Under the pieces are notes generated by a model, which saw only the letters and a program-made list of their open reading frames with translations, made no database searches and was not told the origin of the DNA. This document shows, one piece after another, positions 26,139 through 26,375 of a DNA stretch of 37,591 bases. Position 1 is the first letter of the stretch; each line of letters starts with the position of its first letter. The position numbers were made by a program, and so were the translations under genes. Source of the DNA: a virus; IMG/VR virus record IMGVR_UViG_3300044616_000585, positions 1-37,591 of that record. The stretch is one strand, 5' to 3'.

Positions 26139-26375
26139 GTGGTAAGGTGGTAAGAGTGTGGTAAGCATTTTTTTTACTCTTACCACACTTTAAGTTCTTA
26201 AAAATTATTGAGTTACACTATTATGTGGTAAGTGGTAAGAGAATATATATATATATATATATATATTATATATAGTATAGTAAGTGCAATCACACACATA
26301 AAAATTGCTAGGAAGTTTTAGGGCGTTTTTTACCTCTAGTCTTACCACACGCCACAATGGCGAAAAATTAGCGAA
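26139..26375. other. Intergenic origin-like region: GTGGTAAG octamers, AT tract and inverted repeat
   Basis: This is the only sizeable non-coding stretch in the replication region. The octamer GTGGTAAG occurs at 26139-26146, 26147-26154, 26158-26165, 26225-26232 and 26232-26239, and in the opposite orientation at 26179-26186 and 26341-26348, seven exact copies in about 210 bp. The copies at 26156-26165 and 26179-26188 form a 10-bp inverted repeat. A pure A/T alternating tract fills 26242-26274, a natural unwinding element. A near copy (GTGGTAGG) lies at 26399 inside the end of the primase gene. Iterons plus an AT tract next to helicase and primase genes are the layout of many phage and plasmid origins. 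Operator sites for transcription control are the main alternative. Confidence 0.6.

Follow-up and report, generated by a model that had tools for sequence, protein, structure and literature searches.

An iteron block with an exchangeable octamer word as the probable replication origin of a group of related phages

We analysed a viral contig of 37,591 nucleotides (IMG/VR record IMGVR_UViG_3300044616_000585; this whole stretch is referred to as the window) and conclude that a 237-bp gap between its primase-helicase and SF2 helicase genes, at 26139-26375, is very probably the replication origin of the phage, of the SaPI/PICI and P4 kind, and most likely read by a winged helix predicted at the C-terminal end of the primase-helicase. 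We favour this reading, which draws on comparison of related genomes and on analogy with characterised initiators, because the primase gene and the block make up one cassette, and the octamer word of the block follows the C-terminal half of the primase.

The octamer block and its genomic setting

The ends of the contig share 127 bp as a direct terminal repeat, and it therefore probably represents the whole genome, as a circle of 37,464 nt. It contains a long run of large ORFs that are structural-gene-like in layout, rather than recognised by family, such as a tape-measure-like ORF of 1194 aa. As the initial annotation had proposed, the gap at 26139-26375 was the only larger one of the replication region, and the sole gap above 55 bp between positions 289 and 35656; larger gaps were seen at the contig start and at 35657-35976, the latter (320 bp) being the largest internal non-coding gap of the genome and containing no octamers.

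Seven exact copies of the octamer GTGGTAAG were found in 26139-26348, five on the plus strand and two on the minus strand, flanking an A/T-only tract, in agreement with the number and the two orientations initially reported. The whole window contained 10 copies, compared to 0.45 expected from shuffles. A similar density of octamers elsewhere had been named at the outset as grounds for discarding the block; the three remaining copies were dispersed over the rest of the 37.6 kb (6938, 21076 and 28185), and the complete genome has only one cluster of this word. The features of the region are listed below.

24717..26138, minus strand: SF2 helicase (ResIII/Helicase_C), directly 3′ of the block, not the reader
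26139..26146, plus strand: iteron A1, GTGGTAAG, abutting the ATG of the SF2 helicase gene; conserved-map site +229
26147..26154, plus strand: iteron A2, GTGGTAAG; conserved-map site +221
26158..26165, plus strand: iteron A3, GTGGTAAG; conserved-map site +210
26179..26186, minus strand: iteron B, inverted, GTGGTAAG; conserved-map site +189
26225..26232, plus strand: iteron A4, GTGGTAAG; conserved-map site +143
26232..26239, plus strand: iteron A5, GTGGTAAG, overlapping A4 by 1 nt; conserved-map site +136
26242..26274, no strand: A/T-only tract of 33 nt, presumed DNA unwinding element; an AT-rich run is present in the gap of relatives too
26341..26348, minus strand: iteron across the AT tract from the others, GTGGTAAG; conserved-map site +27
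26376..28580, minus strand: primase-helicase (BT4734-like_N, PriCT_2 and VapE-like by domain scan), presumed initiator and reader, related to PriRep1 7pds
26401..26408, plus strand: eighth iteron, degenerate, GTGGTAGG, within the 3′ coding end of the primase; co-varies with the other sites in relatives
26412..26630, minus strand: predicted C-terminal winged helix of the primase (residues ~651-723; AlphaFold models, RFX-like), presumed iteron-binding domain, covarying with the word
28577..29017, minus strand: 146-aa protein, marginal DnaA domain IV match by domain search, not the reader by identity comparison
29057..29620, minus strand: 187-aa protein, no significant DnaA match by domain search, not the reader by identity comparison

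Six exact sites thus lie on one side of the AT tract, and one exact and one degenerate site on the other. Perfect inverted repeats of 10 to 11 bp were present in the block, where some of the octamers had been described as forming a 10-bp inverted repeat. The tract had been described as 33 bases of alternating A and T; its length and its restriction to A and T were confirmed, but strict alternation holds only over ~26243-26267 and is then broken by a single TT. The SF2 helicase starts at the ATG at 26138, and a longer GTG-started ORF (489 aa) would extend into the block. Analysis of GC skew, one of the checks initially suggested, showed a local sign change at ~25.8 kb, but in the third-codon skew a split at 25.8 kb was near-best and not the best, and one at 31.8 kb was equally good; GC skew thus gives weak backing to an origin at the block.

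A separate observation concerns positions 29617-31797 of the window, which encode an SNF2-type helicase fused to an N4/N6 DNA methyltransferase. This looks like another exchanged module, because some relatives share 99-100% identity with it and others about 39-40%.

A fixed site map with a changing word

Relatives were collected in two IMG/VR scans, with 29 loci recovered for the helicase and 36 for the primase, and in a third IMG/VR scan with a profile, which gave 80 primase loci, many of them on contigs already found. A scan of genome contigs added seven loci in bacterial genomes, six of the seven in Bacteroidota. We infer from these prophage relatives, and from relatives among isolates, that the hosts belong to the Bacteroidota.

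The block was present in ~27 related contigs, in the same gap, 3′ of the gene for the BT4734/PriCT-2/VapE primase-helicase. Conservation in relatives, which had been asked of the block initially, was observed for its layout and not for its word: the gap is kept as an iteron block in every close relative, but the octamer itself differs between classes. Measured from the stop of the primase gene, eight sites fall at about -33, +27, [AT-rich run], +136, +143, +189, +210, +221 and +229, and their orientations are also constant across the word classes GTGGTAAG, GTAGTAAG and GTTGTCAGG. The classes are distributed as follows, where L numbers denote retrieved loci.

GTGGTAAG: window, L008, L009 and L011; full map
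GTAGTAAG: L010, L014, L016, L027, L029 and L036; full map
GTTGTCAGG: L003, L006, L012, L013 and L015; full map, with the in-gene site at -24
GTCTCCAG: L026; the map fits partly
Two looser word classes: L019/L020/L022, and L021; the map fits less completely

The change of word was concerted, every copy within a genome being altered together. Between the GTGGTAAG of the window and the GTAGTAAG of L014, base 3 was switched at all eight sites, including the degenerate site inside the primase gene, and the arms of the inverted repeat showed compensatory changes between word classes. Alignment of the relatives therefore shows a conserved position, a conserved layout and a concerted change of the word. 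As a side observation, L020 and L027 lie on the same 47.5-kb contig (IMGVR_UViG_3300032050_006297). A primase-origin-helicase module is found close to each end of this contig, and the two modules differ; either the assembly is chimeric or the double module is real.

The protein that goes with the word

Comparison of the window with the nearest phage carrying a different word (L006) was informative. Most proteins were 95-100% identical, gene by gene over the whole contig, including the 146-aa protein (100%), the 187-aa protein (99%) and the SF2 helicase (97%), whereas the C-terminus of the primase was 54% identical and the word differed at every site. The complete primase, at 78.5%, was an outlier apart from a few tail genes and unmatched small genes, and among the replication-region proteins present in both phages only the primase diverged so far. 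Sliding nucleotide identity was 93-100% up to the primase start, 54-88% over the primase and the gap, and mostly 86-98% from the helicase start onward. At the level of sequence, then, the primase gene and the block are shown to have been swapped as one cassette.

Other pairs of phages separate the parts of the primase. L027 and L026 have different words, and share 97% identity in the SF2 helicase, 99% in primase residues 1-165 and 94% in residues 166-430, compared to 64% in the helicase part and 41% in the C-terminus. L010 and L014 have the same word, with 43% identity in the primase N-terminus and 71% in the C-terminus. Across the 17 genomes of the core family, the AUC for discriminating same-word from different-word pairs was 0.96 for the winged helix and 0.91 for the helicase part, while the DnaA-like protein reached 0.63 and the SF2 helicase 0.67. 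These alignments tie the word to the C-terminal half of the primase, that is, the helicase part together with the predicted winged helix. Since pairwise identities dissociate from the word, we rejected as its determinant the two DnaA-like proteins, the SF2 helicase (97-98% identical between different-word phages) and the primase N-terminus (99% identical with a different word, and 43% with the same word). Seven small proteins of the window had no match in the contig of L006, and a small protein absent there could conceivably be the reader of the word. A single recombination tract could also move the neighbouring primase gene and block together with no functional link between them; this is countered only by the observation that all copies change together, one of them in coding sequence, and that the swaps are independent.

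The full-length AlphaFold model of the primase-helicase had a mean pLDDT of 84, and its best fold match was PriRep1 (7pds; Foldseek E 1.9e-13), which we take to be a staphylococcal SaPI5 protein. The same structure was the sole significant match in a sequence profile search (E 2.7e-13, residues 395-655). The last 105 residues were modelled as a winged helix, with helices at 651-659, 674-685 and 691-701 and wing strands at 705-710 and 713-722. RFX-type domains were the closest match to this model (Z 8.1, rmsd 2.8 over 76 residues; E 0.007), and because the fold is common, the match makes the C-terminus a plausible DNA-binding domain, no more. The solved origin-binding domain of P4 was absent among the fold matches listed for the winged-helix model, which is uninformative either way. 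The predicted fold and its covariation with the word together lead us to infer that this C-terminal domain would bind the iterons.

Among the changes in the primase between the closest pair of GTGGTAAG and GTAGTAAG phages, S685T and S714P were the clearest, and residue 714, in the wing, is a serine in GTGGTAAG phages but a proline in close GTAGTAAG relatives. When winged-helix columns of 15 representatives were compared with base 3 of the word, 692 (Q692, in the recognition helix) and 714 ranked highest; these were matched by 3 and 5 of 500 shuffles, respectively, before correction for ~50 columns or for descent. Q692 and S714 are thus a possible specificity code, a lead that is not significant after correction.

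The initial annotation had put forward the 146- and 187-residue proteins, described as DnaA-IV-like, as the readers of the octamers. Both genes adjoin the primase, and the 146-aa protein gave a marginal DnaA_C match (DnaA domain IV, Pfam E 6e-4, below the cut-off; NCBIfam DnaA E 2e-4), so that the description held marginally for this protein. However, the 187-aa protein did not reach significance against DnaA domains, DnaA boxes were no commoner in the window than expected (3 against 3.3), and the nearly unchanged proteins of L006 coexist with a wholly different word, making an origin read by either protein highly improbable. It is also improbable, if less so, that the block is an operator cluster with no origin role, through which the primase or another regulator controls transcription or translation of the SF2 helicase. 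Three sites at the start codon of this gene, and an 11-bp inverted repeat that folds well as RNA (z -4.3), would suit such a function, but the eight sites span 270 bp and lie to either side of the AT tract, with one inside the upstream gene, and the layout is common to P4 ori1, which is an annotated origin. The initiator class for which binding to such clusters is known uses them as origins, and autoregulation could coexist with this use.

The inverted repeat might instead be an RNA element or a terminator between the primase and helicase genes, in keeping with its stable hairpin and with arms that are compensatory between word classes. Copies in direct orientation outside the hairpin change likewise, however, and base pairing does not require this; in addition, promoter and terminator scans gave no signal above shuffles, with no intrinsic terminator, and no family was matched in an Rfam search, leaving this account with very little likelihood. 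Clustered repeats are also a feature of packaging, partition and recombination sites, any of which could lie beside the primase by mere adjacency. We consider this just as hard to sustain, given that the word tracks the C-terminal half of the primase and that different-word phages share 99.5% identity in the protein encoded at 14921-16081, which is terminase-like in length and position.

We therefore return to the reading of the block as an origin recognised by the primase-helicase. By analogy with PriRep1, SaPI Rep and P4 alpha, several copies of the primase-helicase would attach to the octamers by their C-terminal winged helices, and hexamers would form on either side of the AT tract and melt it. 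The protein would thereby load itself as the replicative helicase, and would then prime. The same sites may possibly also autoregulate the adjacent genes.

Spacing of the sites and comparison with known origins

The P4 record has six type 1 repeats annotated in ori1. These octamers and six of the window have the same order of orientations (AAA-B-AA), with gaps that agree within 3 bp: offsets in the matching direction are 0, 10, 21, 43 (inverted), 86 and 96 in P4, followed by an AT-rich stretch, and 0, 8, 19, 40 (inverted), 86 and 93 in the window, followed by the AT tract. In both, the AT-rich stretch thus lies beyond the AA pair, and the octamers share a GT...AG skeleton (P4 type I octamers GGTGAACAG). 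The chance of a match within 3 bp with random gaps and orientations was ~6e-5, for one comparison made post hoc. Together with the position, site map and AT tract conserved in relatives, the matching P4 layout supports the initial proposal of a candidate origin with a phage-specific initiator.

A template scan that ignores the word, with ranges set after viewing both origins, gave the window and P4 the same score of 6.0 of 6, and found one place in the complete genome of the window and one, ori1, in the P4 segment searched. In 1.28 Mb of retrieved, partly redundant loci it found 73 clusters, of which three were GCC-rich coding repeats and nearly all had origin words. GCC-/alanine-rich coding repeats with a conserved TADICR-like end were seen in distant relatives (L104:7050-7395, L133:2150-2495, L134:1750-2095 and L141:2200-2545). 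Full or near-full template matches with other words, at a primase identity of 35-44%, were present in L099, L133, L141, L144, L153 (Chitinophaga polysaccharea) and L157 (a Niabella MAG). Beyond the template, iteron clusters with words of their own came after VapE in loci of Pontibacter and Mucilaginibacter, in Streptococcus satellite phage Javan212, S. thermophilus phage CHPC1282, Lactobacillus phage LfeSau and Stutzerimonas plasmid pPSEST02, and in the cultured Flavobacterium phage lotta8-2, whose predicted origin lies at ~10.7-11.1 kb of MN812204. In Flavobacterium phage mumin6-4 (MN812223, L162:16940-17210), GGTAACC-type repeats with an AT-rich stretch lie one gene downstream of VapE, and are a predicted origin in a cultured phage. 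Directly 3′ of their homologous genes, P12024S and phi46:1 showed no cluster, and neither did FoX1, LN25, Mano and phi38:2 on the 3′ side of VapE.

We tentatively propose, with slightly less than even confidence, that the geometry of VapE/SF3-type self-loading helicases dictates a single origin grammar (three sites, an inverted site, ~45 bp, two sites and an AT-rich stretch), common to Bacteroidota phages and prophages, P4, and plasmids and satellites of other phyla. The 8-bp word would then be a free password set by the winged helix, and initiator and origin would travel as a cassette, so that close relatives split into replication-specificity groups. Two observations are new within the open literature searched, namely that words are naturally exchanged on a fixed map and that this map agrees with P4 ori1; the shared spacing may have been noticed earlier, as most subscription papers on SaPI and P4 origins lay outside this search. 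Origins of uncultured phages are almost never known, and a spacing rule that ignores the word locates them from sequence alone, and yields origin predictions in named prophages and cultured phages. Natural swap pairs would reveal which residues of the initiator read which bases. Exchange of the cassette between near-identical phages suggests selection for replication specificity, which may serve to avoid interference between co-infecting relatives or satellites.

The window has neither the clustered DnaA boxes and DnaA reader of DnaA/oriC-type origins nor, among the ten replication-region proteins scanned, a Rep_3-type initiator as in iteron plasmids. Origins of the lambda O type have their iterons inside the initiator gene, whereas here seven exact sites are outside and one degenerate site is inside. 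The archaeal plasmid pRN1 is similar in that ORF904 is a primase-helicase-winged-helix protein with an origin just downstream of its gene (PMC4234260), but this origin is a stem-loop without iterons. In SCCmec, the C-terminal domain of Cch2 binds direct repeats downstream of its own gene (PMC7581432); there are three short repeats in this case, and a separate polymerase-type primase. The winged helix of P4 alpha binds origin repeats (PMC4234260). Unlike the window primase, alpha has a TOPRIM primase (PMC4234260), and sequence homology between the two was not detectable by hhalign (probability 0.1-1.5, single-sequence target). P4 also has a second region, crr, beside alpha, with ori1 kilobases away, while the window has one cluster only.

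The closest parallel is to SaPI and PICI origins. The C-terminal domain of SaPI Rep helicases recognises a short-iteron origin directly downstream of the rep gene itself (PMC7581432), and PICI origins, which follow rep on its 3′ side, have an AT-rich region between iteron sets (PMC6092414). The window differs in being a phage-sized complete genome (37.5 kb) with structural-type ORFs by layout, and not a small satellite island without virion genes, in the BT4734/PriCT-2 type of its primase N-terminal part, and in the unequal size of its site sets. As in SaPI and PICI, its block lies directly 3′ of the stop of the primase-helicase gene, in relatives also, with iteron sets around an AT-rich region, and the presumed initiator, which in the window combines a VapE-related helicase with a primase, has PriRep1 as its closest solved structure by both fold and profile. 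This kind of origin is already known from satellites and islands, and is seen here in phages of Bacteroidota.
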